64,000 bases of DNA from Propionibacteriales bacterium (GTDB taxonomy: Bacteria; Actinomycetota; Actinomycetes; Propionibacteriales; Nocardioidaceae): contig JAPLCB010000007.1 of the NCBI GenBank assembly GCA_026392455.1, positions 1 through 64,000 of the forward strand. Direction: 5' to 3'. The translations under genes were made by a program, and so were the position numbers. This document shows, piece after piece, positions 42,836 to 59,305 of this stretch. The notes under the pieces are model-generated. The model saw only the letters and a program-made list of their open reading frames with translations, ran no database searches and had not been told where the DNA came from. Position 1 is the first letter of the stretch, and the number at the start of each line of letters is the position of its first letter.

Positions 42836-43500
42836 TTCTTCTTCCTGAAGGGGTGGGTCGTGGTCGTCGGCCCGTAGATGCTGCTGAGCCAGAGGAAGGT
42901 CAGGGTCTCGATGTGCTCGTCACGGGGCGGGCCCGAGCCGAGCGAGTGCCGTTCGACGGCGTGGTCGTTGAGGTCGAGCAGGACCGAGGCGAGCGCGGCG
43001 GCGGACGGCCCGTCGGTCGCGCGCCCGGCCGTGCGCTCGCGGCTGATCATCCCGGCGATCACGGCGGCGAAGTCAGCCCGCCCGGCGTCCCACATCTGCC
43101 GTACGGCGGGGCTGGAGGCGCGCGCCTCCAGCAGGGCCCGGTAGGTGTGCGGGCTGGAGTCGACGGAGTCGAAGAGTCCGGTGATCGCGGTGCGGACGCG
43201 TTCGTCCGCTTCGCCCTCCGCGTTGACCAGCAGCTCGTTGGCACGGGCCGCGGCGTCGTACAGATCCTGCATCAGCGCCATCACGGCGATCGCCTTGGAC
43301 TCGAAGTAGAAGTAGAAGGCCGACCGGGTCACGCCGGCCCGCGAGGAGATGTCGGCGACGTTGACCGCGTCCAGGCTCTGCTCGCGGAGCAGCTCGTCGA
43401 GCGCGGTCAGCAGGGCATCACGGCGGTCGTCGCCGCGGTTGGCCCCGCGCCGGTCGACCAGCCGGTTCCAGGCGCCGGCCTCGCTCATCTGCTCGCTCAT
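42832..43500 (-). CDS. TetR-family regulator of the catabolic operon (EthR-like)
   Basis: A 222-residue regulator. The helix-turn-helix is in VADISSRAGVTRSAFYFYFE (about 48-67). The C-terminal domain is EthR-like in length and helix layout. EthR represses the Baeyer-Villiger monooxygenase EthA in mycobacteria; here the regulator lies in the same operon as a flavin monooxygenase. The tandem dyads at 44883-44914 are its probable site. ATG at 43500 overlaps the monooxygenase stop by 4 bases. Confidence 0.9.
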   Translation of the reverse strand: MSEQMSEAGAWNRLVDRRGANRGDDRRDALLTALDELLREQSLDAVNVADISSRAGVTRSAFYFYFESKAIAVMALMQDLYDAAARANELLVNAEGEADERVRTAITGLFDSVDSSPHTYRALLEARASSPAVRQMWDAGRADFAAVIAGMISRERTAGRATDGPSAAALASVLLDLNDHAVERHSLGSGPPRDEHIETLTFLWLSSIYGPTTTTHPFRKKK

Positions 43501-44831
43501 CGTGCTGCGAGCGCGCGCTTCCTGCCGGCCGGGATCTCCCGGGCCCGGAGGTCGTGCTCGTAGATGAAGTAGTCGACCTGCTGGGTGTGCCGTGCGGTCT
43601 TCAGCACGTGGCCGATGTACTTCTCCTCGTCGTCCTTGATCGTCTGCTCCATCTCGGCGACGCCGGGCAGGGCGTACTGACCGATCAGGTGGGCGGCCAC
43701 CAGGCGGGACTGGCTCTCCACGAACGGGAACAACGTCGGGGTCGACTGGGCGAACCCGACGAAGCTCAGGTTCTCGATGCCGGGGGCGAAGATCCGCTTG
43801 TAGAGCGGGATGTGGTTGTCCGGCGCGCTGATGAAGTCGCGGTCGAAGAACGGGAAGGTGATGTTGTAGCCGGTGGCGTAGACGATGATGTCGAACTCGC
43901 CGCTGGTGCCGTCCTCGAAGTGCACGGTGGTGCCGTCGAGCAGCGAGATGTTCGGCTTGGGGATCACGTCGCCCGACCCGAGCCGCAGCGGCAGCTCGAC
44001 GGACTGGGTCGGGTGCGCCTCGAAGAACTTGTGGTTCGGCTCCTTGAGGCCGTACAGGGCGCCGTTCGAGCCGTTCATCGGCTGCGCCAGCTGCATCACC
44101 TTGCGCTGCCAGCGCAGCGGGAGGTACGGCGTGGTGCGGTACATCGTGTCGGCCGGCTTGCCGTAGACGTACTTCGGCACGATCCAGGCGCCGGACCGGG
44201 TGGAGAGCGTCACGTGGGTCTGCAGCGACTTGCTGGAGAGCTCCACCGCGATGTCGGCGGCGCTGTTGCCCAGCCCCACCACCAGGATCCGAGCGCCGAA
44301 GAAGTCCAGCGGGGCCTTCGGGTCGATGTAGTGGTGGGAGTGGATCGACACCCCGGTGAACTCGCCGGGGAACTCGGCGAACCGGGGGTCCCAGTGGTGG
44401 CCGTTGGCGACGACCAGGTGGTCGAAGTGGCGGGTGGTCCCGGCCTGGTCGAGGATGTCCCAACCGCCTCCTGCGTTCTCACCGATCGGGGTCGCGCTCG
44501 TGACCCCGTTCTCGAACTCGATGTTGTCCTTCAGGTCGAACGCGTCGGCGTAGGACTCGAGGTACTGCTTGATCTGGGTGTGGTGCGGGAAGTCGGGGTA
44601 CTCCGGAGGCATCGGGAAGTCCCGGAAGGAGAGTCGTTCCTTGGACGTGTCGATGTGCAGCGAGCGGTACGCGCTGCTGTGCCCGTTCGGGTTGCCGAAG
44701 GCCCAGTTGCCACCGATCCGGTCCGACGACTCGAAGCAGGTGTAGGGGACGCCGTAGTCGCTGAGCATCTTGCCGACCGTCAGGCCGCTGATGCCGGCGC
44801 CGATGACGGCTGTGCTGGGGTGGTGGGACAA
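43497..44831 (-). CDS. Flavin-containing (Baeyer-Villiger-like) monooxygenase
   Basis: A 444-residue FAD/NADPH enzyme. FAD motif TAVIGAGISGLTVGKML at the start, GGNWAFG, a loop RSLHIDTSKERLSF, NADPH motif VVGLGNSAADIAVE, and YATGYNITFPFFD near the C-terminus. It oxygenates ketones or heteroatoms. The TTG at 44831 is preferred over an earlier in-frame codon because a GGAGG site lies 6 bases before it. First gene of a nine-gene minus-strand operon. Confidence 0.9.
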   Translation of the reverse strand: MSHHPSTAVIGAGISGLTVGKMLSDYGVPYTCFESSDRIGGNWAFGNPNGHSSAYRSLHIDTSKERLSFRDFPMPPEYPDFPHHTQIKQYLESYADAFDLKDNIEFENGVTSATPIGENAGGGWDILDQAGTTRHFDHLVVANGHHWDPRFAEFPGEFTGVSIHSHHYIDPKAPLDFFGARILVVGLGNSAADIAVELSSKSLQTHVTLSTRSGAWIVPKYVYGKPADTMYRTTPYLPLRWQRKVMQLAQPMNGSNGALYGLKEPNHKFFEAHPTQSVELPLRLGSGDVIPKPNISLLDGTTVHFEDGTSGEFDIIVYATGYNITFPFFDRDFISAPDNHIPLYKRIFAPGIENLSFVGFAQSTPTLFPFVESQSRLVAAHLIGQYALPGVAEMEQTIKDDEEKYIGHVLKTARHTQQVDYFIYEHDLRAREIPAGRKRALAAR

Positions 44832-44866
44832 CGGAGCCTCCGGAATTCTGGGGGGTGACGCAGGCC

Positions 44867-44896
44867 ACATTAGGCGCTAGGTTTGACACGTGTCAA
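44867..44896 (-). promoter_or_regulatory. Promoter of the nine-gene catabolic operon (TTGACA-N18-TAATGT)
   Basis: On the minus strand -35 TTGACA (44896-44891) and -10 TAATGT (44872-44867) are 18 bases apart. The -35 box is one arm of the palindromic operator, so a bound TetR would block it. Confidence 0.65.
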
Positions 44897-44914
44897 TCAA
44901 TACCGACAAGTGTC
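44883..44914. promoter_or_regulatory. Tandem TetR operators (TGACA-N2-TGTCA dyads)
   Basis: The perfect palindrome TTGACACGTGTCAA (44883-44896) is followed by a second, imperfect copy GACAAGTGTC (44905-44914). Their centres are 20 bases apart, about two helical turns, suggesting cooperative binding of TetR dimers. They lie between the divergent monooxygenase operon and the SDR operon, and reach to within 10 bases of the SDR ATG. Confidence 0.82.
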
Positions 44915-44924
44915 AGGAGCACGC

Positions 44925-45668
44925 ATGAGCCTCACCACCGTCGTCATCGGCGGAGCGTCCGGGATCGGCCGGGCGACCGCCGAGGACCTGCGCGAGAACG
45001 GCCACACCGTCGTCGTCGCGGACCTGGCCCTGCCCGCGGACGGGCCGGAGAACGCGATCGTCGTGGACGTCACCGACGAGGCCTCGGTCGCGGCGCTCTT
45101 CGACGCCGTCGTCGAGCAGCACGGCGCTTTCACCGGGGTCGTGAACTGTGCGGGCGTCAGCACGTTGAGCCCGGTCGTCGACCACGACGCCGCGGAGTTC
45201 CGCCGGGTGCTCGACGTCTGCCTGACCGGGGCCTTCCTGGTCCTCAAGCACGCCGGGTCCCGGGTCGCTGACGGGGGTTCCCTGGTCACGCTGTCGTCCC
45301 TGAACGGACGCCAGCCCGGCGGTGGTCTGGTGGCGTACTGCGCCGCCAAGGCGGGCGTGAACATGCTGACCCAGGTGGCAGCGCTCGAGCTGGCGGCCCG
45401 CAAGGTCCGGGTCAACGCGGTCGCGCCCGGCTTGGTGATCACCCCGCTGACCGCGCCGGCGATGGACATCGCCGGGATCGAGGACGACTACCTGGAGAAC
45501 ACGCCCCTGGGTCGCAGCGGGGAGCCGTCCGAGATCGCCGCCGCGGTGCGTTTCCTGCTGTCGGCGGACTCCGCCTGGATCACCGGGGACGTCCTGGACA
45601 TCAACGGCGGGGCGCACCTGATGCGCTACCCCGACCTGCAGACCCACGTGATGAAGGCGTTCGGATGA
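44925..45668 (+). CDS. SDR-family oxidoreductase
   Basis: A 247-residue classical SDR. TVVIGGASGIGRATAEDL binds the nucleotide; VVNCAGVSTLSPV, LVTLSSLNG and the active-site VAYCAAKAGVNML (YxxxK) follow, then VNAVAPGLVITPLT and SAWITGDVLDINGGAHL. Likely an NAD(P)-dependent alcohol dehydrogenase for a ring or side-chain hydroxyl. An AGGAG site lies upstream of the ATG at 44925, immediately after the second operator copy. Overlaps the next SDR gene by 4 bases. Confidence 0.93.
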   Translation: MSLTTVVIGGASGIGRATAEDLRENGHTVVVADLALPADGPENAIVVDVTDEASVAALFDAVVEQHGAFTGVVNCAGVSTLSPVVDHDAAEFRRVLDVCLTGAFLVLKHAGSRVADGGSLVTLSSLNGRQPGGGLVAYCAAKAGVNMLTQVAALELAARKVRVNAVAPGLVITPLTAPAMDIAGIEDDYLENTPLGRSGEPSEIAAAVRFLLSADSAWITGDVLDINGGAHLMRYPDLQTHVMKAFG

Positions 45669-46477
45669 GCCGGTCGCGCGCGATCCCGCCCGGTTGGTAC
45701 GACGGCAAGGTCGCCATCGTCACCGGGGGCTCTTCGGGGATCGGCGCCGCCCTGGTCGCCGCGCTGCGGACAGCCGGTGCCACCGTGGTTGCCGCCGACC
45801 TGGCGCCGGGGCCGGGGGACAGCGCGCTCGACGTCACCGACGCCGCCGCGGTCCAGGCGCTGGTCGACAGCACCGTGGCCGAGCACGGCCGGCTCGACCT
45901 GCTGTTCAACAATGCCGGCATCACCTTCATCGGGGAGACCACCGACATCACCCTGGCGCAGTGGAACCAGATCATCGACGTCAACATCCGAGGCGTCGTG
46001 CACGGAGTGGCGGCGGCGTACCCGCAGATGATCCGCCAGGGGTCCGGGTCCATCGTCAACACCGCCTCGATGGGCGGGCTGATGGCGGCCGGGCTGATCA
46101 CGTCCTACGTGACCACGAAGCACGCCGTCGTCGGTCTCTCCGCAGCGCTGCGCTCCGAGGCCGCGGCGTACGGCGTCGGGGTGACGGTGGTGTGCCCGGC
46201 GGCGGTGGACACCCCGATCCTGGACCAGGGCGAGATCGGGCGGATCTCCGGTCGTGACTACTACCTCAAGGGCCAGGGCGTCCGGCACCCCGTAGCGCCG
46301 GCCGCGCTCGCCGCCCGGGTGCTGGCCGCGATCCCGGCGGGCGAGGCGGTCGTGATCGAGCCGTTCCAGGCCCGGATGGCCTACCGTCTCCAGCGTCTTG
46401 CCCCCGGCTTCACCCGCAACGCCTCCACCCGATTCGTGAACAAGCAGCGCAAGCGTGCTGCCGACAAGAGGACCTGA
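45665..46477 (+). CDS. SDR-family oxidoreductase
   Basis: A 270-residue classical SDR with AIVTGGSSGIGAALVAAL, LFNNAGITFIGE, NTASMGGLMAAG, active-site SYVTTKHAVVGLS (Y-V-T-T-K) and VVCPAAVDTPILD. The longer, basic C-terminal tail is unlike the preceding SDR, so it is not a recent duplicate. Likely oxidises or reduces a hydrophobic alcohol. Part of the divergent three-gene unit under the shared operator. Confidence 0.92.
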   Translation: MSRSRAIPPGWYDGKVAIVTGGSSGIGAALVAALRTAGATVVAADLAPGPGDSALDVTDAAAVQALVDSTVAEHGRLDLLFNNAGITFIGETTDITLAQWNQIIDVNIRGVVHGVAAAYPQMIRQGSGSIVNTASMGGLMAAGLITSYVTTKHAVVGLSAALRSEAAAYGVGVTVVCPAAVDTPILDQGEIGRISGRDYYLKGQGVRHPVAPAALAARVLAAIPAGEAVVIEPFQARMAYRLQRLAPGFTRNASTRFVNKQRKRAADKRT

Positions 46478-46478
46478 C

Positions 46479-46958
46479 ATGGCCACCCAGCCCCGCCCCG
46501 ACCAGCTCGACTCGCCGATCATCCCCAAGGTGCTGAAGTACGTCGGCAAGGCCCACGTCCGGGTCTACCGGCTGACCAAAGGTCGGATCGGGGGCAAGTG
46601 GCGGATCGGGGCCGGCTGGAAGAAGCCGGTCCCCACGCTGCTGCTCGACCACGTCGGCCGCAAGAGCGGCAAGCAGTTCACCACCCCGCTGCTCTACCTG
46701 CTCGACGGTCCGAACGTCGTGATCGTCGCCTCGCAGGGCGGTCTCCCGAAGAACCCGCAGTGGTACGCCAACCTGGTCGCGACACCGGCGACGAAGGTGC
46801 AGATCAAGGGCGAGGTGCGCGACGTCCTGGCGCACACCGCCGACGGGACCGAGCGGGCGGCCCTGTGGCCGAAGCTGGTCGAGCTCTACGCCGACTTCGA
46901 GAACTACCAGGCCTGGACCGAGCGCGAGATCCCGGTCGTCGTCCTCACCCCCCGTTGA
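46479..46958 (+). CDS. Ddn-type deazaflavin (F420)-dependent nitroreductase-family protein
   Basis: A 159-residue split-barrel protein. Typical Ddn features: KAHVRVYRLTKGRIGG, LLLDHVGRKSGKQFTTPLLY, VVIVASQGGLPKNPQWYANL, and DFENYQAWTEREIPVVVL. Relatives use F420H2 to reduce quinones, nitro groups or enones. Start is the ATG at 46479, immediately after the preceding SDR stop. The stop TGA is part of a GTTGAGCAGGG sequence repeated elsewhere in the window. Confidence 0.92.
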   Translation: MATQPRPDQLDSPIIPKVLKYVGKAHVRVYRLTKGRIGGKWRIGAGWKKPVPTLLLDHVGRKSGKQFTTPLLYLLDGPNVVIVASQGGLPKNPQWYANLVATPATKVQIKGEVRDVLAHTADGTERAALWPKLVELYADFENYQAWTEREIPVVVLTPR

Positions 46959-49214: not shown

Positions 49215-49282
49215 CGAGGACCTCTTCTCGGCGGAGGCTTCGGACCCTCGTGGGTTCGCCGGGGGCGTCGAGGCATCGCCCG

Positions 49283-49304
49283 CTTTGTCGGAATCCCGAC
49301 AAAG
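49283..49304. promoter_or_regulatory. Dyad in the ABC-cassette promoter region (CTTTGTCGG-N4-CCGACAAAG)
   Basis: A perfect 9-bp inverted repeat with a 4-base centre, between the divergent acidic-protein gene and the binding-lipoprotein gene. Candidate operator or hairpin; its regulator is unknown. Confidence 0.6.
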
Positions 49305-49354
49305 TTTGGGTCCAGGGGTTTCGGCAGGGGAGCGGGGACGGCATACTCCCGGAA

Positions 49355-49368
49355 TAGAACACGTTCCA
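49355..49368. promoter_or_regulatory. KstR-like operator (TAGAACACGTTCCA)
   Basis: The 14-mer fits TNNAACNNGTTNNA, the motif known for the KstR cholesterol regulon of mycobacteria, at every fixed position. It is 94 bases before the GTG of the binding-lipoprotein gene. The match is real; binding by a KstR-like protein is inference, and no canonical KstR is evident in this window. Confidence 0.6.
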
Positions 49369-49383
49369 GAAAGTAACTTTCTG
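49367..49383. promoter_or_regulatory. Dyad CAGAAAGT-A-ACTTTCTG
   Basis: A perfect 8-bp inverted repeat with a single central base, abutting the KstR-like site. The half-site ACTTTCTGG recurs about 30 bases downstream. Suggests a second regulator binding the same promoter. Confidence 0.6.
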
Positions 49384-49461
49384 CTCGTCGGACAGTTATG
49401 TGATGAACATCTACTTTCTGGTTTGTCCTCACCTGGAAGAACTGGCGTCAGGAGTACGGCT

Positions 49462-50937
49462 GTGCAAAGCGTTGTGGGATCCGCCCGGACCCGTCGGCTG
49501 CTGGGAATCGGAGCGATGACGATCGCGCTCGCTGTTCCCACGGCATGCGGAGGATCGGCCCTGGAGCCGGAAGCCGTGAGGTCGGCCAACGCCGGGCTCG
49601 CCGGTACCAGTGCAGGCGGAGTCGCCGGCGGAGTCGTGGATCCCGGCACCGGCGTCGTCGGTGGCACTGGTACGACGGGTGGGACCGGCACGACCGGAGG
49701 AACCGGGACGACCGGCGGAACCGGCGGCACCGGGACCACCGGTGGCACCACGGGTGGCACCGGTGGTGGCACGACCAGCCCGCCCCCGGGCGTGAAGGCG
49801 GCGTCCTGTGCCGGCTTCAAGAACTCCAAGGGCATCACCGACACCCAGATCCAGATCGGCAACTCCGCGGACATCTCCGGACCGGTGCCCGGCCTGTTCA
49901 CCTCGGCCCAGCAGGCCACCAAGGCCTACGTCGCCTACTTCAACGCCACGTCGAAGATCTGCGGCCGCTCGCTCGCGCTGACCCAGGCCCTGGACTCGCG
50001 CACCGACGCGGGTGCCGACCAGGCGTCGTACCAGAAGCTCTGCGACAGCGTCTTCGCCGCGGTCGGCTCGATGTCGGCCTTCGACTCCGGCGGCGCCGGC
50101 GTGGCCCAGGGCTGCGGCCTGCCGGACATCCGGACCTCGTCGGTCACCGGTGACCGCAACGACTGCAGTACCTGCTTCGGCGCCCAGGCGACCGGCAAGC
50201 ACGAGTTCTCCAACGCGGTCCCGGACTACTTCGTCAAGAACTACAAGGACGCCAGCCAGAACGCCGCCTTCCTCTACCTCAACGCCGGTGCCGCCGCGGA
50301 GAACGCGAAGTACCAGCAGAAGGTCGAGCAGCAGCGCGGGATGCGGTTCGTCTACACCCAGGCCATCGACGTCGCCGACTTCAACTACGGGCCCTACGTC
50401 CAGCAGATGAAGAGCAAGGGCGTGAAGTGGGTCCAGTTCATCGGCGCCTACCAGCAGTCGGTGCGGCTCGCCCAGGCGATGCAGTCCGCCGGCTTCAAGC
50501 CGCAGGTCCGGCTGTACGACCCGTCGGTCTACGACCAGGGCTTCCTCAAGACCGGCGGCAGCGCCGTCGAGGGCGTCTTCCTGTTCATCAACTTCACCCC
50601 GCTCGAGGAGAGCCAGCCCGAGCTGAACCTCTACAAGCAGTGGCTCCAGCAGGTTGCCCCGGGCGCCCAGCCGACCTTCTTCGGCGAGTTCGCCTGGTCG
50701 GCCGCCAAGCTGTTCGTCGAGGAGTCGATCAAGCTCGGTGGCAAGCTCAACCGAGCCTCGCTGATCGCCGCGATCAGGAAGCAGCGTGCCTGGACCGGTG
50801 GCGGGATGCACGGACCGATGGACGTCGGCGGCAAGCACTCGCCGTCCTGCATCCGGTTCATGCAGGTCAAGGGTGGCAAGTTCGTCCCGCTGGGATCGAC
50901 GAAGTACACCTGCAGCGGCGCCAGCGTGGGGCGGTGA
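49462..50937 (+). CDS. ABC transporter substrate-binding lipoprotein (branched-chain amino-acid-type fold)
   Basis: A 491-residue lipoprotein. A twin-basic start (RTRRLLGIG) and hydrophobic core end in AVPTACGG with the lipid-modified Cys at about residue 29 (a weak lipobox with Pro at -3). A Gly/Thr-rich linker (about 50-110) precedes the periplasmic-binding domain (ITDTQIQIGNSADISGPVPG). It has an unusually high number of Cys for the family (for example DCSTCFG, PSCIRF). The Leu/Ile/Val-binding fold in actinobacteria serves diverse ligands, so the substrate is open. AGGAG lies before the GTG at 49462. Confidence 0.88.
   Translation: MQSVVGSARTRRLLGIGAMTIALAVPTACGGSALEPEAVRSANAGLAGTSAGGVAGGVVDPGTGVVGGTGTTGGTGTTGGTGTTGGTGGTGTTGGTTGGTGGGTTSPPPGVKAASCAGFKNSKGITDTQIQIGNSADISGPVPGLFTSAQQATKAYVAYFNATSKICGRSLALTQALDSRTDAGADQASYQKLCDSVFAAVGSMSAFDSGGAGVAQGCGLPDIRTSSVTGDRNDCSTCFGAQATGKHEFSNAVPDYFVKNYKDASQNAAFLYLNAGAAAENAKYQQKVEQQRGMRFVYTQAIDVADFNYGPYVQQMKSKGVKWVQFIGAYQQSVRLAQAMQSAGFKPQVRLYDPSVYDQGFLKTGGSAVEGVFLFINFTPLEESQPELNLYKQWLQQVAPGAQPTFFGEFAWSAAKLFVEESIKLGGKLNRASLIAAIRKQRAWTGGGMHGPMDVGGKHSPSCIRFMQVKGGKFVPLGSTKYTCSGASVGR
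49654..49779 (+). repeat. Gly/Thr-coding repeat in the binding lipoprotein
   Basis: Imperfect short repeats (GGNACNACNGGNGGNACC-like) encode a (GTGTTG)n linker of about 42 residues between the lipid anchor and the binding domain. Likely a spacer across the cell wall; prone to length change. Confidence 0.75.
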
Positions 50938-50941
50938 CCGG

Positions 50942-52939
50942 ATGAGTACCTTCATCAGCTACACCCTCGAAGGGTTGTTCACCGGCGCTGCGTACGCGAT
51001 CGCCGCGAGCGGCCTGGTGCTCACCTACAGCACCACCCGGGTGTTCAACATCGCCCACGGTGCCGTCGGCATGGTCTTCGGCTTCCTCTACTGGGACTTC
51101 TCGGTCAAGCAGGGTCTCCCGGTCTGGTTCTCGCTGATCCTGGTGCTCCTGGTGGTCGCGCCGTTGCTCGGGGTGTTCTTCCAGCGGGTGCTCACCCGCG
51201 GCCTGGGTAGCGCCCCGATCGGCGTCTCGCTGGTCGTCACGGTCGGCATGCTGGTGGCGCTGATCGGTGTCGCCCAGCAGATCTGGAGCACCGAGGACGC
51301 CCGGGTGCTGCCGGAGTTCTTCGTCGGCAAGTCGATCAGCATCGGCGACGACATCAACCTCAGCTACCACCGGGCGATCACCATCGTGCTGTCCGGGATC
51401 GTCGCGGCCGGACTGTACGTGCTGCTGACCCGGACCCGGGTCGGTACCGCGATGCGCGCCAGCGTCGACAACCCCGACCTGCTCGAGCTGTACGGCGGCA
51501 AGCCCAAGACCGTCGCCGCGCTCTCCTGGGCGGTCGGCACCTCGCTGGGCGCACTGTCCGGCATCCTGCTGGCCCCGATCGTCGGGCTGGAGTACTTCGG
51601 CCTCACCCTGCTGGTGATCTCGGCGTACGCAGCGGCGATGCTCGGCAAGCTGACCAGCCTCCCGCTGACCTACGTCGGTGCGCTGCTGCTCGGCCTGGCG
51701 TCGTCGTACCTGGTCGGCTACCTGCAGTACCTGCCCGGCGACAAGTACCTCACCGGTCTGCCGGCCGTCGTCCCGGCACTGTTCCTCGCCCTGATCCTGG
51801 TGCTGCTGCCCCAGGCCCCGTTGCGGATCGGTCAGGTGAAGGGCCTGGTCGCTGCACCGGTGCCGAGCCTGACCAAGAGCCTCGGTTGGGGGGCCGGCCT
51901 GCTGGTCGTGGTCTTCGTGGCGTCCAGCGGGATGTCGAACGCCAACCTGCTCCTGGTCGGCACGGCCGCCACCTACGGCATCGTGATGCTCTCGCTGGTG
52001 CTGCTGACCGGGTACGGCGGCGTCGTGTCGCTGGCGCAGTTCACCTTCGCCGGGGTCGGCGCTATCGCCTACTGCAAGATCGACCAGCCGAACCTCTTCG
52101 GCTTGCTGCTGGTGGTCCTGATCTCGGCGGGGGTCGGTGCGCTGGTGGCGTTCCCGGTGCTCCGGCTGACGGGGCTCTACCTGGCTCTGGCGACGCTGGC
52201 GTTCGCGCAGCTGATGGAGAAGCTGATCTTCGTGCAGCCGTTCGCGTTCGAGTTCGCCAACCTGCTCCAGGCCAAGCGCCTGTCGATCCTGGGCTACCAG
52301 TTCAACACCAACCGTCAGTACGTCGTGATGATGGCGGTGTTCTTCGTCCTGGTCGCGGTCCTGGTCCTCGCCCTGCGTCGGGGCCCGCTGGGCCGGATCC
52401 TGATCGCGATGCGCGACAGCCAGGCCGCCTGCGGAACCCTGGGGCTGGACCAGCGCTGGTTCCGGGTGGCGCTGTTCGCCGGTTCGGCCGGGATCGCCGG
52501 TCTCGGCGGTGCCCTCTTCGCGGGTCTGCGTCAGGCCGTCGGCTCGGCCGACTTCATCTACTTCCAGAGCCTGCTGCTGCTGCTCTTCGCGGTGATCTGG
52601 GGCGTCACGTCGGTCACCGGTGCGCTGCTCGGCGGGGTCTTCATGATGTACCTGCCCGAGGCCCAGGCCACCTACCCCGACGTCGCCGGTCTGCTCTTCG
52701 TGCTGATCGGGATCGGCGCGGTGGTGATCGGTCGCGACCCGAACGGTCTGGCCAACAAGCTGTTCGGCTTCCCGCGCTGGATCCAGACCACGGTCTACCC
52801 GTTCCTGGCCGGGCGCTATCCCGGCCTCGCCCTGAAGTCCCGCGAGCCGCGGGCCGCCGAGGACGAGGACGAACCCATCGCACCCGGACCCGTCGAGACC
52901 AACCAGGAGGTGGACTCGGATGCCGTTGCTGCACGTTGA
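50942..52939 (+). CDS. Fused ABC permease (LivH-LivM)
   Basis: A 665-residue membrane protein joining two permease domains normally encoded separately. The LivH half (about 1-300) has LVLTYSTTRVFNIAHGAVGM and the permease loop AMRASVDNPDLLELYGG. The LivM half (about 325-620) has LLTGYGGVVSLAQFTFAGVG and AMRDSQAACGTLGLD, the EAA-type loop. About 18 membrane segments, then an acidic cytosolic tail. The fusion fixes a 1:1 stoichiometry. ATG at 50942 is 4 bases after the lipoprotein stop. Confidence 0.93.
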   Translation: MSTFISYTLEGLFTGAAYAIAASGLVLTYSTTRVFNIAHGAVGMVFGFLYWDFSVKQGLPVWFSLILVLLVVAPLLGVFFQRVLTRGLGSAPIGVSLVVTVGMLVALIGVAQQIWSTEDARVLPEFFVGKSISIGDDINLSYHRAITIVLSGIVAAGLYVLLTRTRVGTAMRASVDNPDLLELYGGKPKTVAALSWAVGTSLGALSGILLAPIVGLEYFGLTLLVISAYAAAMLGKLTSLPLTYVGALLLGLASSYLVGYLQYLPGDKYLTGLPAVVPALFLALILVLLPQAPLRIGQVKGLVAAPVPSLTKSLGWGAGLLVVVFVASSGMSNANLLLVGTAATYGIVMLSLVLLTGYGGVVSLAQFTFAGVGAIAYCKIDQPNLFGLLLVVLISAGVGALVAFPVLRLTGLYLALATLAFAQLMEKLIFVQPFAFEFANLLQAKRLSILGYQFNTNRQYVVMMAVFFVLVAVLVLALRRGPLGRILIAMRDSQAACGTLGLDQRWFRVALFAGSAGIAGLGGALFAGLRQAVGSADFIYFQSLLLLLFAVIWGVTSVTGALLGGVFMMYLPEAQATYPDVAGLLFVLIGIGAVVIGRDPNGLANKLFGFPRWIQTTVYPFLAGRYPGLALKSREPRAAEDEDEPIAPGPVETNQEVDSDAVAAR

Positions 52940-53732
52940 CGACGTCGTCGTCCAGTTCGGCGGCGTGACCGCCGTCAACCACGCGAACTTCCAGGTCGAG
53001 GCCGGCACCATCACCGGTCTGATCGGCCCGAACGGTGCCGGGAAGACCACCACGTTCAACGTGGTCACGGGTCTCCAGACGCCGACCTCGGGCCGGGTCA
53101 TGTTCGACGGCAAGAACATCAACCGGCTGCCGGTGAACCGGCGGTCCAAGCGCGGGATCGGCCGGACCTTCCAGCGGTTGGAGGCCTTCGGGTCGCTGAC
53201 CGTGGCCGACAACGTCCGGGTCGCCCTGGACATCAAGCGCGGGCTGCGCGGGATGTTCGCCTCGACCGGGAACCAGGTCCACGACCTGCTGGAGCTGGTC
53301 GGTATCTCCAGCTACGCAGGCGACCGGGCCGACTCGATCCCGACCGGCACCGCCCGGTTGCTCGAGCTCGCCCGGGCGCTGGCCTGCGAGCCGCGGCTGC
53401 TGCTGCTCGACGAGCCCTCCTCGGGCCTGGACGAGTCCGAGACCGAGGACTTCGGTCGGCTGCTGCAGAAGCTCGCCGGCGAAGGCGTCACGATCCTGAT
53501 GGTCGAGCACGACATGGACCTGGTGATGAGCGTCTGCAACGAGATCCACGTCCTGGACTTCGGCTCGATCATCGCCTACGGCACGCCGGCGGAGATCCGG
53601 GAGAACCCGGTGGTCCAGAAGGCCTACCTGGGCTACTCCGACGAGGGGCCGGTCGACCCGGACGGCCCGACGAACGACAGCAACCACGACACCGCGGTCC
53701 TGGATGCCGTCACCGAAGGAGCAGCGCAGTGA
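52920..53732 (+). CDS. ABC transporter ATPase (LivG-like)
   Basis: A 270-residue ATPase. Walker A GLIGPNGAGKTTTFN, Q-loop in GRTFQRLEAFGSLTV, Walker B LLLLDEPSSGLDESE and H-loop MVEHDMDL are intact. The signature motif is DSIPTGTARLLELARAL instead of the usual LSGGQ/LPYGQ-type sequence, a departure also found in some actinobacterial homologues. The acidic C-terminal extension is longer than in classical LivG. It overlaps the permease gene by 20 bases and the next ATPase by 4. Confidence 0.93.
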   Translation: MPLLHVDDVVVQFGGVTAVNHANFQVEAGTITGLIGPNGAGKTTTFNVVTGLQTPTSGRVMFDGKNINRLPVNRRSKRGIGRTFQRLEAFGSLTVADNVRVALDIKRGLRGMFASTGNQVHDLLELVGISSYAGDRADSIPTGTARLLELARALACEPRLLLLDEPSSGLDESETEDFGRLLQKLAGEGVTILMVEHDMDLVMSVCNEIHVLDFGSIIAYGTPAEIRENPVVQKAYLGYSDEGPVDPDGPTNDSNHDTAVLDAVTEGAAQ

Positions 53733-54436
53733 GTGTCCCGATCCTCGATGTCATCGACATCCACGCGGCGTACGGTCGGATCGAGGTCCTCCGCGGAGTC
53801 AACCTGACCATCCCGAAGGGGTCCGTGCTGGCGCTGCTGGGACCCAACGGTGCCGGCAAGTCCACCTTGCTCAAGGTCATCTCGGGCCAGATGGAGCAGA
53901 CCTCGGGCGACATCCACCTCGCCGGTGTCCACGTCACCGGCGCGAAGCCCGACGACCTCGCGCGGGCCGGTCTGACCACGATCCCCGAGGGTCGCAGCGT
54001 CTTCCCGAACCTGACGGTCGAGGAGAACCTGCTGCTGATGTCGTACGCCGGTGTCGCCGCCGACAAGGTGTTCGACACCGCGTACTCCTACTTCCCGCGG
54101 CTGCACGAGCGCCGCTACCAGCTGGCCGGCACCATGTCCGGCGGCGAGCAGCAGATGCTCGCGATGGCCCGCGCACTGTCGTCGGACCCGGCGCTGCTGC
54201 TGCTCGACGAGCTCTCGATGGGCCTCGCCCCGTTGATCGTCGACGACCTGTACGAGACCGTCGGGAGGATTGCCCAGTCCGGGGTCTCGATCCTGGTGGT
54301 CGAGCAATTTGCCCGGACGGCACTGCGGGTGTCCGATTACGCTGCTGTGATGACGGGTGGCCGGGTCGTCGCGACCGGCGAGCCTGACGAGATCGGCGAG
54401 ATCATGGCCGACGTAATACTGGGGGGTGCCGCATGA
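53729..54436 (+). CDS. ABC transporter ATPase (LivF-like)
   Basis: A 235-residue ATPase with Walker A LLGPNGAGKSTLLK, TTIPEGRSVFPNLTVEENL (a LivF hallmark), signature MSGGEQQMLAMARALSS, Walker B LLLLDELSMGLAP and H-loop VVEQFART, where the usual His is replaced by Gln-Phe as in other LivF proteins. Pairs with the LivG-like subunit, possibly providing the consensus signature for one of the two ATP sites. GTG at 53729; 4-base overlaps at both ends. Confidence 0.94.
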   Translation: MSVPILDVIDIHAAYGRIEVLRGVNLTIPKGSVLALLGPNGAGKSTLLKVISGQMEQTSGDIHLAGVHVTGAKPDDLARAGLTTIPEGRSVFPNLTVEENLLLMSYAGVAADKVFDTAYSYFPRLHERRYQLAGTMSGGEQQMLAMARALSSDPALLLLDELSMGLAPLIVDDLYETVGRIAQSGVSILVVEQFARTALRVSDYAAVMTGGRVVATGEPDEIGEIMADVILGGAA

Positions 54437-56079
54437 CCTGCGTGCAATGCAACGAGAAGTCCGAGAAGACCCTGTACGACAAGACGGTTGCCCGTCGGGT
54501 CGCTACGGCGAGCCGTCGTACCAAGCGCTCGCTGGCGGCCCTGGCGGTGATGGGGTTGTTCGTCGGCGGTAGCGCCGCCTCCCTGCAGCCGGCGGTGGCA
54601 GCGTCCGACTTCGCCGGGTTCACCACCTTCGCCCAGGCGACGCCGCTGCGGGTCGAGATCTACGAGGCTGCCATCCCGATCCCGGCGTCGCCGCAGATCG
54701 AGTTCAACTTCTCCTACACCAAGGTGGCCGGTGCGACCGGCCCGATCGGCACTGCTCGCGCTTCGGCGATGTGGCCGGGCGACGGTGTCGGTGAGGGTCT
54801 CAAGACGTTCGGTGAGCAGCTCGGCCTTCCCGGTCAGCTCACCGACGGCGGTTACCCGGCCCAGGTCAACGCCCAGTCCCCCGGGGACACCGCGACCGCC
54901 AGCCAGGAGTTCCTGCCGGGCAGCGTCGGGCGGGTCAGCACCAGCGACAAGAAGGCGGTCGCCAAGGTCGGCTACGGCACCACGGGTGACGTGACCGAGG
55001 GCGGCACCAACGGCGACGCCAAGCCGCCGAACCTGCTCGACATCCTGCAGGGCGACCCGACGGCACTGGCCGGGCTGCTGCTCGGGACCGCCACCGGCAA
55101 GCCCGGTGACGCGGCGCCGAGCTCGAGCCCGTTGGGAGCCTTGGGCGTGATCGTGGCGGCCGGCGGCATGGAGAGCATCTCCACGACCACCTACGAGGCC
55201 GACGCCGACCGCGTGGTGGCCACCGCGACCGCTCGGCTGGGCAGCGTCGCGCTGCTGGCCGGTCTGGTGAAGCTGGACGGCGTGGAGGTCGTCACCAAGA
55301 CGACCAGCAACGTCACCGGCGGCGCGAAGACCACCAAGTCGATCACCATCGGCGCGATGACCGTGGCCGGGAACAAGTTCGGCTACACCGGAACCGGTTT
55401 CGAGGCGATGGGCAACCAGACCCCGATCCCCGGGCTGCCCGACGACCCGGTCAAGGCGCTCGCCGCGCTCGGCATCAAGTTCGAGATGGGCAAGTCGGTC
55501 GCCTCCAAGGACGGCGCCGTCGGCGCGATCTCGGCCGAGGGGCTGCGGATCAGCATCGACACCACGCCGCTGACCGCGCTGCTGCCGAAGCTCCCGCTCG
55601 CCGACCTGGTCAACGGGCTGCCCGACCTGCCGGGTCAGGCCGCGATTCTCAAGGGTCTGATCGTGGCGCTCGGTGAGGCACACCCGCGGATCGACCTGGT
55701 CCTCGGCTCGGCGATCACCAACGCCCAGACCGTCAAGGCGCTGCCGTTCCCGGAGACCCCGACGACCCCGACCGACACCCCGGAAGCTCCGGTGGTCGCG
55801 CCGTTGGCGCCGACCGACGCGACCGGCTCGATCGTCGACCCGGGTGCTCCGGAGGCGACCCCGCCGGTGGTCAACCCGTTGCCGCCGGTCACCAACGTCG
55901 CCGACATCCCGGGCCTGCCGCCGCTGGGGAGCATCCCGATGGCCCTGATCGTCGGGGGCCTGCTGCTGGCCAGCGCCCTGGGCTGGTACATCACCACTGC
56001 TGGGAACCTGTTGTTCGGCGGAGCCGCCGCCTGTGCACACGGCCTCAAGGCCGGCATCCCTGACCTGAGGAAGGTATGA
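54433..56079 (+). CDS. Large exported protein with C-terminal membrane anchor, ABC-cassette component
   Basis: A 548-residue protein with no family I recognise. The first 17 residues carry a CxxC (TCVQC) before a basic stretch and a hydrophobic signal segment ending AVAA (about 57). The mature part is beta-rich and Gly/Ala/Thr/Pro-rich, followed by a Pro/Thr linker (about 435-490), a C-terminal membrane helix (PMALIVGGLLLASALGWYIT) and a short tail. It overlaps the LivF-like gene by 4 bases, so it is a fixed part of the transporter. A wall-spanning or outer receptor that hands substrate to the lipoprotein is one possibility (inference). Confidence 0.7.
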   Translation: MTCVQCNEKSEKTLYDKTVARRVATASRRTKRSLAALAVMGLFVGGSAASLQPAVAASDFAGFTTFAQATPLRVEIYEAAIPIPASPQIEFNFSYTKVAGATGPIGTARASAMWPGDGVGEGLKTFGEQLGLPGQLTDGGYPAQVNAQSPGDTATASQEFLPGSVGRVSTSDKKAVAKVGYGTTGDVTEGGTNGDAKPPNLLDILQGDPTALAGLLLGTATGKPGDAAPSSSPLGALGVIVAAGGMESISTTTYEADADRVVATATARLGSVALLAGLVKLDGVEVVTKTTSNVTGGAKTTKSITIGAMTVAGNKFGYTGTGFEAMGNQTPIPGLPDDPVKALAALGIKFEMGKSVASKDGAVGAISAEGLRISIDTTPLTALLPKLPLADLVNGLPDLPGQAAILKGLIVALGEAHPRIDLVLGSAITNAQTVKALPFPETPTTPTDTPEAPVVAPLAPTDATGSIVDPGAPEATPPVVNPLPPVTNVADIPGLPPLGSIPMALIVGGLLLASALGWYITTAGNLLFGGAAACAHGLKAGIPDLRKV

Positions 56080-56080
56080 G

Positions 56081-56749
56081 ATGACCACCATCAACGCTGA
56101 AGCCCCTGTCGTCGCTGCGAAGCGGGACACGATGCCGCGTGCAGCCAGCCGGGACGGGGTCGCCCCGCTGAAGGGCAACGCCGCCCAGAAGCTGCACCAG
56201 GTGCTCTTCATCGCCGGCGCGGTCCTGCTGCCGGGCGGCCTGATCGTGATCGGCCTCGGCTGGTACGGCGTGGCCAACACGCCCTACGAGTACGACCAGA
56301 CCTCCTACCTGGTCTCCGGCGGCATCCTCGGTCTGGGTATCACCTTCGCCGGTGGCTTCCTGTACTTCGGGTCCTGGCTGGCCCGGATCGCCGCGGACCA
56401 GCGGGAGTCGGCCGACAAGCTGGCCGAGACCCTGATGCTGCTGGCCGAGTCCGCTGCCCGCAACGAGGCCCCGGCTGCCCTGGCTGCCCCGGCTGCCCCG
56501 GCGGCGCACGCTGCTCCGGCCGAGGTGGCCTCGGTGGTCGCTCCGGCCGCTGCCGCGACGGCCACGGTCACCCGACCGGTCCCGACTCCGGCCCGTGCCA
56601 AGGACGCCGCCGCGGCCACCCTGGTGGTTGCCGGGCGCGGCAAGACCGTGCACCGGACGGACTGCGACCTGATCGCTGGTCGTGAGGACCTCAAGCCGGC
56701 CGGCTCGGACATCACGGACCTGATCCCGTGCAGGCTCTGCCAGTCCTGA
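56081..56749 (+). CDS. Membrane protein with Ala/Pro linker and Ada-like C-terminal Cys motif
   Basis: A 222-residue protein. Two membrane helices (about 38-58 and 76-98) precede a short amphipathic helix, an Ala/Pro-rich linker of repeated APAA-type units (about 125-175) and a C-terminal motif VHRTDCDLIAGRED...PCRLCQS. The H-R-x-x-C-x-L and C-x-x-C pattern resembles the zinc-binding N-terminal domain of Ada and related short Cys modules. Likely faces the cytosol, possibly sensing metal or redox state, or binding DNA or a regulator (inference). ATG is 1 base after the preceding stop. Confidence 0.7.
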   Translation: MTTINAEAPVVAAKRDTMPRAASRDGVAPLKGNAAQKLHQVLFIAGAVLLPGGLIVIGLGWYGVANTPYEYDQTSYLVSGGILGLGITFAGGFLYFGSWLARIAADQRESADKLAETLMLLAESAARNEAPAALAAPAAPAAHAAPAEVASVVAPAAAATATVTRPVPTPARAKDAAAATLVVAGRGKTVHRTDCDLIAGREDLKPAGSDITDLIPCRLCQS

Positions 56750-57429
56750 CGAGCGACCAGGTCGACCGGGCATCCGTCCCGGCCCAGGCCGGGCCCGGAT
56801 CGAAGGCCCGGCGCACCCAGGCGGAGCGTCGGGCCGAGAGCGACCAGCGGCTGCTGCGGGCCACCGCCGAGCTGATCGTCGAGCGCGGGATCGAAGGCAC
56901 GTCCCTGGCAGCGATCGGTCGACGTGCCGGGTACAGCCACGGGCTCGTGCACGCACGGTTCGGCTCGAAGGACGCCCTGGTCGAGCGGGTGAACGACGAG
57001 GCCGTCCGGATGTTCACCGACACCACCGTCACCCAGGTCGGCGAGCACCAGGGCCTCAACGCGCTGCGGATCGTGGTCGAGACGTACCTGCGGTTGGTGC
57101 TCGGCCCCGACCCGGTGGCCCGGGTCCACCTGCTGGTGTGGAGCGAGACCCTCGCCCACGGGTCCGGCAGGCGCCCGTACCGCGCCGAGTGGGACCGGGT
57201 CTTCCGGTCCGCGTTGGTCGCGATGATCGCGACCGGGATCGAGGACGGCAGCATCCGACGGGGGATCGACCCCGAGGCTGCCGCGATGGTGCTGGTCGGG
57301 ATGATCCGCGGCGTCGCCCTGCAGCTGATCCTGGACCCGTCAGCCGGCTCCGCGGAAACCGTCACCCAGGTCGTCCTGGGGCACCTGGACCGGACGCTGA
57401 GGTCCGCGCCGGTCGTTCACGCTCTCTAG
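56728..57429 (+). CDS. TetR-family regulator (cassette copy 1)
   Basis: A 233-residue regulator with a helix-turn-helix in SLAAIGRRAGYSHGLVHARFG (about 60-80). The preceding ARRTQAERRAESDQRLL is shared almost exactly with the convergent TetR gene. It starts at the GTG at 56728 inside the previous gene (22-base overlap), so it belongs to the cassette operon and is a natural candidate for controlling it. Its stop overlaps the other TetR's stop by 4 bases. Confidence 0.9.
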   Translation: MQALPVLTSDQVDRASVPAQAGPGSKARRTQAERRAESDQRLLRATAELIVERGIEGTSLAAIGRRAGYSHGLVHARFGSKDALVERVNDEAVRMFTDTTVTQVGEHQGLNALRIVVETYLRLVLGPDPVARVHLLVWSETLAHGSGRRPYRAEWDRVFRSALVAMIATGIEDGSIRRGIDPEAAAMVLVGMIRGVALQLILDPSAGSAETVTQVVLGHLDRTLRSAPVVHAL

Positions 57430-58049
57430 GCGCTCGGGCGGAGCTCAGCCAGGACGAACGACCGCACCAGGTCCTTCGCCCCGGCGAGGCTGATCCCTTC
57501 GTCGAGCATCAGCTGCATCGCGATCCCGCGCAGGATGCCGACGATCGTCAGGGCGGTCTCCGAGACCGCGACGTCCGGGCGGATCCTGCCGTCGTCGATA
57601 CCGCGCTGGATCAGCCCGGTCAGGAAGTCCCGGAACTGGCGGTCCCACTCCATCTGGGAACCGCGGCGCCCGGCGGAGTTGGCGATCGCCTCGCTCCAGA
57701 GGATCACGTGCACCCGTCCCAACGGGTTGGCCCCGACGACGAGGTCGAGGTAGACGTCCCCGATCTCCAGGACGGCATCGAGCCCCCGGAGCCGCCCGAC
57801 CCGATCCTCGGCCATCCGGGCGTAGTACTCGGTCGCAACCTCGATGATCCGGGCCGCGAGATCGTCCTTGGAGCCGAAACGGTGGTTCACCAGCGCGTGG
57901 CTGGCGCCGGCGCGGCGGCCGATGTCGGCCAGCGAGGTGTTCTCCAGGCCCTGCTCGACGATCAGCTCGACGGACGCCTGGATCAGCCGCTGCTCGCTGT
58001 CGGCACGGCGCTCCGCCTGGGTGCGGCGAGAGCTGTCCGAGGTGGGCAC
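57426..58049 (-). CDS. TetR-family regulator (cassette copy 2, convergent paralogue)
   Basis: A 207-residue TetR with SLADIGRRAGASHALVNHRFG, a near-duplicate of the recognition region in the convergent regulator, and the same arrangement of C-terminal helices. The two genes probably derive from an inverted duplication and may recognise similar operators. ATG at 58049; a CRP-like site lies 35 bases upstream. Which of the two binds the cassette promoter is unknown. Confidence 0.9.
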   Translation of the reverse strand: MPTSDSSRRTQAERRADSEQRLIQASVELIVEQGLENTSLADIGRRAGASHALVNHRFGSKDDLAARIIEVATEYYARMAEDRVGRLRGLDAVLEIGDVYLDLVVGANPLGRVHVILWSEAIANSAGRRGSQMEWDRQFRDFLTGLIQRGIDDGRIRPDVAVSETALTIVGILRGIAMQLMLDEGISLAGAKDLVRSFVLAELRPSA

Positions 58050-58344: not shown

Positions 58345-59223
58345 TCAGCCGGCGAGGTAGTCCAGGATCAGGTGGTTGACCAGGTCCGGCTGCTCGAGCT
58401 GGAGGAAGTGCCCGGCGTCGGGAACCAGCTCGACCACGCTCCCGGCCGGCAGGTGCGGTTCGGCCAGCGCGACCAGCCGCGGATCCAGGCAGCCGTCGTC
58501 AGCGCCGTGCAGGTAGAGCAGTGGAACCAGCGGGAGGCGCCGCTCGGCCCCCTTCCAGCGCCGGTACTGCGCCGGCGGTCCGAACGGGCTGGCGAAGGCG
58601 CGGTAGTAGCCGATCACCGCGCTGCGGTTCGCCGGACCGGCCATCGCGGCGAGGACGTCGGGGAGATCGGCGCTGGCGTCGTACCCGGGTGACCAGTCGC
58701 GCCAGAGCTTGCGGACCAGACGCTCGTGGTGGCGCTCCGGCAGCCGGGGGACCTGGTTGAAGAAGATGTACCAGCTGTTGCGGACCTGCCGGGGAAGGAT
58801 CCTCAGGACGCCGGCGCTCCCCGGCCCGGCCATCGCGGCCAGGGGCGGCACCGAGAGCACGACGACCTTGGCGAACGGGGAGTCCTCGTGCGCCGCCAGC
58901 GCGTTGGCGGTGATCGCTCCCCAGTCGTGGCCGACCAGGACGGCGTCCGGCCCGCCTCCCAGGGCGGTGTGCACGCCGAGCACGTCGCTGACCAGTGCGG
59001 CGACGTCCCCGCGACCGTCCGCCGGGACCTCGGACGGCGCGTACCCGCGGAGGAAGGGTGCCACCACCCGCCAGCCCTCGGCGGCGAGCGCGGGCCCGAG
59101 GTGCCGCCAGGTGTGGGCGGTGTCGGGGAAACCGTGCAGCAGGACCGCCAGCGGGCCGTCGACCGGACCCCAGGTCAGGGCTGCGAGCGACACGGCGGGG
59201 AGGTCGATCCGGATCTGCTGCAT
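58345..59223 (-). CDS. Alpha/beta hydrolase, epoxide-hydrolase-like
   Basis: A 292-residue hydrolase. LLHGFPDTAHTWRHL gives the oxyanion loop and VLVGHDWGAITANAL the nucleophile elbow, with Asp as nucleophile as in epoxide hydrolases and haloalkane dehalogenases. DGCLDPRL and VPDAGHFLQLEQPD supply acid and His. The cap region has a Tyr in IGYYRAFASP, where epoxide-opening tyrosines sit. ATG at 59223 chosen because conserved sequence begins there. It converges on the 52-residue gene with 10 bases between stops. Confidence 0.9.
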   Translation of the reverse strand: MQQIRIDLPAVSLAALTWGPVDGPLAVLLHGFPDTAHTWRHLGPALAAEGWRVVAPFLRGYAPSEVPADGRGDVAALVSDVLGVHTALGGGPDAVLVGHDWGAITANALAAHEDSPFAKVVVLSVPPLAAMAGPGSAGVLRILPRQVRNSWYIFFNQVPRLPERHHERLVRKLWRDWSPGYDASADLPDVLAAMAGPANRSAVIGYYRAFASPFGPPAQYRRWKGAERRLPLVPLLYLHGADDGCLDPRLVALAEPHLPAGSVVELVPDAGHFLQLEQPDLVNHLILDYLAG

Positions 59224-59305
59224 CGGCCCATCGTGGCAGGTTCGTCCAGGGTGATTCCACCCACAGGGCCGGGTCGGACCGAGCGGGCGCGCGGCGCAGG
59301 TCATC

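Follow-up and report, generated by a model that had tools for sequence, protein, structure and literature searches.

What does the operon at positions 49462-57429 of this genome segment import, and do the two membrane proteins encoded behind its ATP-binding cassette (ABC) transporter genes, here named P5 and P6, belong to the transporter? The segment (hereafter, the window) is a stretch of 64,000 nucleotides from a Propionibacteriales bacterium of the Nocardioidaceae (assembly GCA_026392455.1, contig JAPLCB010000007.1, positions 1 to 64,000). An earlier sequence-only reading had described a Liv-type cassette with two unfamiliar accessory proteins and had guessed, from a KstR-like site, at a lipid or steroid cargo. 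Comparative analysis established P5 and P6 as fixed parts of the cassette, and makes it reasonably probable that the operon specifies a KstR-repressed ABC importer of the Liv type, which takes up a steroid or a product of steroid breakdown and has P5 and P6 as dedicated membrane partners. The cassette is a good candidate for a steroid importer because it carries the control site of steroid-breakdown genes.

The run contains seven plus-strand genes, namely those for a substrate-binding protein (SBP), the fused LivHM permease, LivG, LivF, P5, P6 and TetRa. Their positions and order agree with the earlier description, which had counted six by leaving TetRa out of the number. Neighboring genes either overlap by 4 to 22 bases or are separated by gaps of 1 to 4 bases. 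The features are as follows:

49355-49368, unstranded: KstR-like operator TAGAACACGTTCCA, from the motif search with controls
49367-49420, unstranded: second promoter element, with CAGAAAGTAACTTTCTG (49367-49383), ACTTTCTG (49413-49420) and, between them, ATGTGATG(A/C)ACAT
49462-50937, plus strand: SBP, a substrate-binding lipoprotein with a Gly/Thr linker; Peripla_BP_6 match
50942-52939, plus strand: fused LivH-LivM permease, ATG at 50942; two BPD_transp_2 stretches
52920-53732, plus strand: LivG-type ATPase; ABC_tran and BCA_ABC_TP_C; overlaps the permease gene by 20 bases
53729-54436, plus strand: LivF-type ATPase; ABC_tran; 4-base overlap with LivG
54433-56079, plus strand: P5, 548 residues, exported, with a C-terminal anchor; 4-base overlap with LivF
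56081-56749, plus strand: P6, 222 residues, two membrane helices; 1-base gap after P5
56728-57429, plus strand: TetRa; TetR_N; 22-base overlap with P6; in close relatives only
57426-58049, minus strand: TetRb; TetR_N; tail to tail with TetRa; in close relatives only

Among 148 relatives, searches for P5, for P6 and for the fused permease (64% identity as the minimum) picked out an identical set of 19 genomes, the next-best permease matches (E-value 1e-60) being at most 41% identical and located in G050, G056, G035, G015 and G011; at most 9, 22 and 8 candidates per genome were scored in the P5, P6 and permease searches, respectively. P5 adjoins P6 in all 18 loci of other relatives that carry P5, and the order SBP-LivHM-LivG-LivF-P5-P6 is kept in each of the 17 relatives' loci with enough contig (one SBP is cut). 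A scan of named genomes with P6 returned 87 relatives, and all counts given for named loci refer to the best 80 of these 87, which are mostly Nocardioides and other Nocardioidaceae, together with Pimelobacter, Haloechinothrix, one Actinophytocola metagenome-assembled genome (MAG), 12 Lentzea and others. A P5 match is present in 80 of 80 named loci (weak, at 45-90 bits, in L082, L109 and L113) and all five partners of P6 in 72 (the SBP of L109 being a 21-bit scrap at the contig edge), while the contigs of the other 8 end inside the run. The SBP is divergent in L051, L054 and L113, and the genes from LivHM through P6 lie on mixed strands in none of the 80. P5 and P6 are fixed parts of the cassette, as the earlier reading had supposed from their 4-base overlaps, and they are present at the same locus in related genomes.

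A wider survey of 396 genomes of the phylum detected P6-like genes in 30 of them, and regions were fetched around 20 of the 46 P6-like matches outside the window's own genome. A LivHM match is found in 19 of these 20 regions (the remaining one, a 4.7-kb contig, has a strong LivF) and a P5 match in 9, with none in 11. P6 is thus more widespread than the full set. Because LivHM accompanies P6-like genes in 19 of 20 regions and P5 in just 9, Liv cassettes in general seem to have P6-like proteins as partners, with P5 marking the sub-type seen here. As a rough background, a further 20 regions from the window's genome, selected because they contain KstR-like sites, were inspected; none has an SBP or LivHM match, and several do hold other ABC ATPases. 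In loci L160-L171, from other actinobacterial families, P6-like two-helix proteins are observed beside Liv cassettes, 11 of the 12 without a P5 match and some with P6 between the SBP and the permease. In one relative (G015:C3:72632-75287), P6-like matches immediately precede a fused permease that is a distant second copy (34% identity), a further hint that P6-like proteins accompany Liv cassettes.

The transporter core itself is readily classified. The SBP matches Peripla_BP_6 at 126.2 bits (threshold 31.7) over residues 129-473, and its signal and lipoprotein cysteine are evident from the sequence; the fused permease is matched by PF02653 (BPD_transp_2) in two stretches, and both ATPases match ABC_tran (LivG also BCA_ABC_TP_C). 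These Pfam results, together with those for the TetR proteins, agree with the identities assigned earlier to the parts, and the combination of an exported Peripla_BP_6 SBP, two BPD_transp_2 domains and LivG- plus LivF-type ATPases places the cassette in the Liv/HAAT family. At the finer level of NCBIfam equivalogs (LivG, LivF, LivH, LivM, UrtB-E), all scores are below the respective cut-offs, e.g., 207.4 against 362 for LivG, 202.1 against 285.8 for UrtE and 85 against 250.3 for UrtB, which are the best obtained. The closest SBP of solved structure is 3hut (E-value 3.7e-7), whose own name is putative. Tandem SBP matches ahead of the permease are observed in L056, L057, L058, L062, L063, L072 and further Nocardioides loci; such pairs perhaps serve two cargoes.

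The KstR-like site proposed earlier is borne out by a controlled motif search. The motif tested, TNNAACNNGTTNNA, was sought in the 350 bases that precede the first SBP start in 71 promoter regions (the window and 70 named loci; 10 loci with a truncated SBP start or without an SBP of 150 bits were omitted). Of these regions 36 contain it, as compared with 0 of 71 for each of 11 control palindromes made of the same letters; the core GAACNNGTTC was found in 25 regions, five of six shorter controls giving 0 and one giving 4. In Lentzea, none of the 11 promoters examined is without the motif; 9 carry it in the form TAGAACGCGTTCTA, and each has a second core. Among the 17 SBP-holding loci of relatives (one of which is cut upstream of the SBP), a loose KstR pattern precedes the SBP in 12.

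A genome-wide search with the tighter motif yielded 53 strand hits, located at 31 places, versus 11 strand hits for a reversed control, so that some of these places must be chance occurrences. Of the 30 places other than the operon's own, 25 were fetched and 22 flanking genes were named, including some not known to act on steroids (folC, cysD, a potassium/proton antiporter). A single 70-kb stretch (C3:572-642 kb) accounts for seven of the places; it contains hsaA (625 bits, cut-off 450) at a KstR-like motif, CYP125 (E-value 4.5e-159 to 3ivy) with the motif overlapping its called start, a gene for an Rv3520c-type F420 enzyme at a motif and one for a FadD8 ligase (both over cut-off), two genes for double-length acyl-CoA dehydrogenases, and a KstR2 orthologue (E-value 5.9e-63 to 4w97). 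The operon thus has two features of a putative KstR-regulon member, namely the operator in its promoter and the motif at the known targets hsaA and CYP125 of the same genome.

A further line of evidence is provided by the distribution of HsaA. It exceeds its cut-off in 27 of the 148 relatives, comprising 18 of 19 operon carriers and 9 of 129 genomes that lack the operon. Fisher p values are 1.3e-15 overall, 0.008 inside the genus (12/13 vs. 4/11) and 4.6e-6 in the rest of the family (6/6 vs. 5/61), and are to be taken as guides, because related species are not independent. The single operon carrier without HsaA, G005, is 92% complete. In the named set, the search covered 50 of the 80 loci (the 54 not titled MAG, minus L058, L082, L091 and L115), corresponding to 49 genomes, and HsaA is over cut-off in all 49; the Lentzea included are all operon carriers. 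Cassette and HsaA thus occur together in Nocardioidaceae, in Lentzea and in Haloechinothrix. Behind the operon of Haloechinothrix lie genes for a P450, a short-chain dehydrogenase/reductase (SDR), an F420-dependent luciferase-like monooxygenase (LLM) oxidoreductase and a flavin adenine dinucleotide (FAD)-binding protein, the last of uncertain role. Overall, the earlier guess of a steroid cargo gains support from the KstR-type regulon and from the association, in this family, with steroid ring degradation as represented by HsaA.

Several observations weigh against this interpretation. As many as 35 of the 71 promoters lack the KstR motif in the stretch tested, a few sites having possibly been missed, e.g., in L061, because the SBP start was estimated. 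The link to HsaA fails phylum-wide, where HsaA was found in 15 of the 396 genomes (at an E-value of 1e-120 or better): the window's own genome alone has both HsaA and a P6-like gene, 14 HsaA genomes being without P6 and 29 P6 genomes without HsaA. The window's genome contains about six groups of Mce genes, one of them (C3:559-565 kb) beside the steroid cluster, and 17 of the 19 operon-bearing relatives have 12-14 Mce matches among the matches listed, of which at most 14 were scored (G005 has 6 and G056 one); since Mce groups coexist with it in the same genome, the cassette need not be the main sterol importer and seems to add to Mce, not to replace it. In Pimelobacter (Nocardioides) simplex, the gene most strongly induced by phytosterol (59-fold), according to PMC7807495, is KR76_25195, an 'ABC amino acid transporter'. 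We considered this gene as expression evidence for the operon and rejected it, since its place in the fadD3 cluster fits another Liv cassette. P. simplex ATCC 6946 has the operon (L061) on NZ_FOUK01000002.1 (1,030,196 bases) and FadD3 on another contig, G542:C2 (1,555,435 bases), at 259 kb; KR76_25195, being placed in the fadD3 cluster, probably belongs to a different Liv cassette on the latter contig. Another, apparently unfused Liv cassette (L214) is observed at about 246-249 kb of G542:C2, some 10 kb from fadD3, and the 54 kb around fadD3 and this cassette gave no P5, P6 or SBP profile match. In the open-licence literature, we found neither ligand, binding, transport or expression data on this operon nor a paper on it, and no comparable steroid importer was seen to be described there.

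The binding proteins of Liv-type systems generally favor small polar molecules, a preference that would suit a cassette recapturing excreted, more polar steroid intermediates (aromatised A-ring/indane acids) while sterol entry is left to Mce. The six or so Mce groups, including the one beside the steroid cluster, fit such a division of labor, and CamABCD with CamM of Rhodococcus jostii is reported to act in this manner (review PMC8399759). For N. simplex, PMC7593942 describes induction of the Mce genes by cholesterol and lithocholate and suggests them, perhaps with the permease KR76_18015, as steroid carriers. However, the site in the operon's promoter is of the KstR type, and KstR is described as controlling uptake, the side chain and rings A/B, with rings C/D under KstR2 (PMC9782250); a soluble cargo would moreover give P5 and P6 no obvious use. 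On these grounds we regard recapture of intermediates as unlikely, if worth keeping in view.

The family membership of the core, as well as its sub-cut-off NCBIfam similarity to LivH, LivM, LivG, LivF and Urt proteins, would also agree with an ordinary importer of amino acids or short branched acids, brought under KstR through the propionate and branched acids of side-chain breakdown and flanked by P5 and P6 as bystander envelope proteins. Bystanders would hardly be expected to co-occur as strictly with the permease as P5 and P6 do, nor an amino-acid importer to be tied to HsaA in these families, and this explanation appears improbable. Finally, the operator might serve another TetR protein with a similar site, such as TetRa or TetRb, given that a pair of TetR genes lies next to the operon in the window, as it does in 7 of the 18 P5-bearing loci of relatives, and that kstR itself was not located in the window's genome. 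Yet Lentzea and Nocardioides loci that lack these TetR genes retain the KstR-like site, the same motif marks steroid genes elsewhere in the window's own genome, and the element that does accompany the TetR genes is a different one, ACTTTCTG; we give this possibility very little weight. The KstR-controlled steroid importer is accordingly the reading we retain. A candidate for KstR itself, the product of L191:11639-12241, was ruled out, its translation being an exported anchored protein without a solved-structure match. This small protein is encoded on the minus strand and has no family match; its gene is divergent from hsaA, with a KstR-like site between the two.

The twin TetR genes are present as the sequence-only reading had placed them, and they are not part of the wider module. 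The relatives' loci with both genes all belong to the window's genus (at least 2 other loci are cut there), and both are found in 6 of the 80 named loci, partly in the same genomes as the relatives' set. The 64-kb window contains three copies of ACTTTCTG, every one of them at this promoter, as compared with 0.21 expected. Both arms of the second element (AGAAAGT and ACTTTCTG) stand beside the KstR-like site in the window and 5 named loci, and in 0 of the other 65 regions; the two-arm loci are exactly the TetR-bearing loci with a readable promoter. Because of this coincidence, TetRa or TetRb probably binds the second element as a putative operator, and the TetR pair, being confined to the close relatives where the element occurs, probably adds local control there. 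An alpha/beta hydrolase gene is found near TetRb (window positions 58345-59304, minus strand) and likewise in 7 of 7 relatives' loci with the TetR pair and in L031, which is without the pair. Two further candidate genes in relatives' loci, dn2 and dn3, were rejected as antisense frames, the genes at these places being a glycosyltransferase and a hydrolase gene on the plus strand.

From a signal-like N terminus, P5 continues through an exported, beta-rich region (about residues 60-435), a Pro/Thr-rich linker and a membrane helix (residues 502-527) to a short tail. In its predicted structure (mean pLDDT, i.e., predicted local distance difference test, of 72.8), confidence is mostly good from approximately residue 60 to 440 save for 181-240, and the membrane helix is predicted with moderate confidence. 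The tail, CxHGLxxG(I/L)PDLRK, ranks among the best conserved stretches of the protein and, given the predicted topology, would lie on the cytosolic side. Among the 77 named P5 frames that reach 100 bits, all but two contain GxPDLR (75 of 77); of the two exceptions, one reads GVPNLR and the other comes from a locus with P5 split over two frames. The profile searches suggested earlier for both accessory proteins gave no Pfam match for the window's P5 or P6 at E-values up to 1; across members of the P6 family, one Pfam family, PF03334, recurred weakly. For P5, Pfam searches of 39 members at E-values up to 0.1 gave two single-member matches (0.038 to 0.08). Likeness to choice-of-anchor P proteins (NF040603) is limited to one segment, residues 206-316, and scores 26.3 bits, below the cut-off of 27; no paper on the name 'choice-of-anchor P family' was found in the open-licence literature. 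A profile search of solved structures gave no match to P5, and a resemblance to porins/FadL in Foldseek was dismissed as not credible (E-values down to 6.9e-4, probability at most 0.25 and query TM score at most 0.15 among the best 50 rows).

P6 (mean pLDDT of the predicted structure 76.6) is composed of membrane helices (residues 31-66 and the first part of a long helix at 71-134), an Ala-rich linker and a small HxxxC...CxxC end. This end, earlier called an Ada-like CxxC end, is real in 67 of 80 named P6 frames and missing from all 12 Lentzea and from one frame cut by its contig; judging from Lentzea, the P6 family can do without it. Among 40 P6 members, Pfam searches at E-values up to 0.1 returned 16 families, with a best single match at 0.0005; PF03334 (Mrp antiporter subunit G) was weakly matched by 29 of the 40 (best E-value 0.002). 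The window's own P6, which has no match to it at E-values up to 1, stays below the gathering score of this family. Searches of solved structures gave no profile match under an E-value of 0.09 and no Foldseek match under 0.2. The helix hairpin of P6 does resemble subunit G (MnhG) by Foldseek (7d3u_G, probability 0.90; 6z16_G, probability 0.80), weakly in view of E-values of 1.3 and 3.6, and this likeness is further tempered by the fact that a two-helix hairpin is a common shape and that no Mrp genes were seen in this operon. Neither P5 nor P6 thus appears, by these sequence and structure comparisons, to have a convincing solved relative.

These features can be assembled into a working model of the KstR-controlled steroid importer. 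KstR would bind the operator and be released by a steroid-derived ligand; the SBP lipoprotein would bind the cargo. P5, membrane-anchored and wall-facing, may collect the poorly soluble ligand or hand it over, its conserved tail (cytosolic by predicted topology) possibly docking on the ATPases or on P6, which would sit beside the permease; in close relatives of the window, TetRa or TetRb would probably add a second layer of control via the ACTTTCTG element. A bolder proposal, which we offer tentatively and hold to be possible, is that P5 and P6 represent two undescribed families that jointly turn a Liv-type importer into a carrier that brings a hydrophobic steroid through the thick wall of those actinobacteria that lack mycolic acids. 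P5 would then be the wall-facing steroid receptor, its PDLRK tail would couple the receptor to the ATPase, and the P6-like proteins encoded next to other Liv cassettes across the phylum would point to a broader class of Liv importers that depend on partners. If true, this would constitute the type of steroid uptake system that is reportedly lacking beyond the mycolic-acid group.

Shortly upstream of the operon, window positions 40273-46958 encode an acyl-CoA ligase, a hydrolase, a flavin-containing monooxygenase (FMO)-type enzyme, two SDRs and an F420H2-dependent reductase, likely a catabolic cluster. As to practical consequences, the operon reveals two conserved families of membrane proteins that are linked to a single transporter and lack a convincing Pfam name, and it provides a concrete steroid-importer candidate for cultured Nocardioides, Pimelobacter and Lentzea. 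Since P. simplex is of interest for steroid conversion (PMC7807495), such an importer could have practical value.

As far as seen, the transporter type is real, conserved and partly new, its core being of a known kind and its partners and place in a steroid regulon being new. Comparison with described systems brings out both aspects. Like the Mce4 importer of mycolic-acid actinobacteria, it is an ABC system tied to the KstR steroid regulon; unlike Mce4, it has an SBP-type core and no Mce protein among its products, neither Mce-domain nor YrbE families being present among the Pfam and NCBIfam matches of the operon (for NCBIfam, the best 25 of 198 per ATPase) and no Mce match occurring on the window's contig. 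CamABCD of Rhodococcus jostii RHA1, which takes up cholate metabolites, is likewise an ABC importer in steroid catabolism, similar to the present cassette by description alone; the passages of PMC8399759 on CamABCD name no accessory proteins, whereas this cassette has P5 and P6. With the Liv/HAAT (LivKHMGF) and Urt (UrtABCDE) importers it shares the Peripla_BP_6 lipoprotein, two BPD_transp_2 stretches and two ATPases, and it differs from both in the fusion of its permeases, in scores that stay under the NCBIfam equivalog cut-offs, and in the addition of two conserved membrane proteins and a KstR-type operator.

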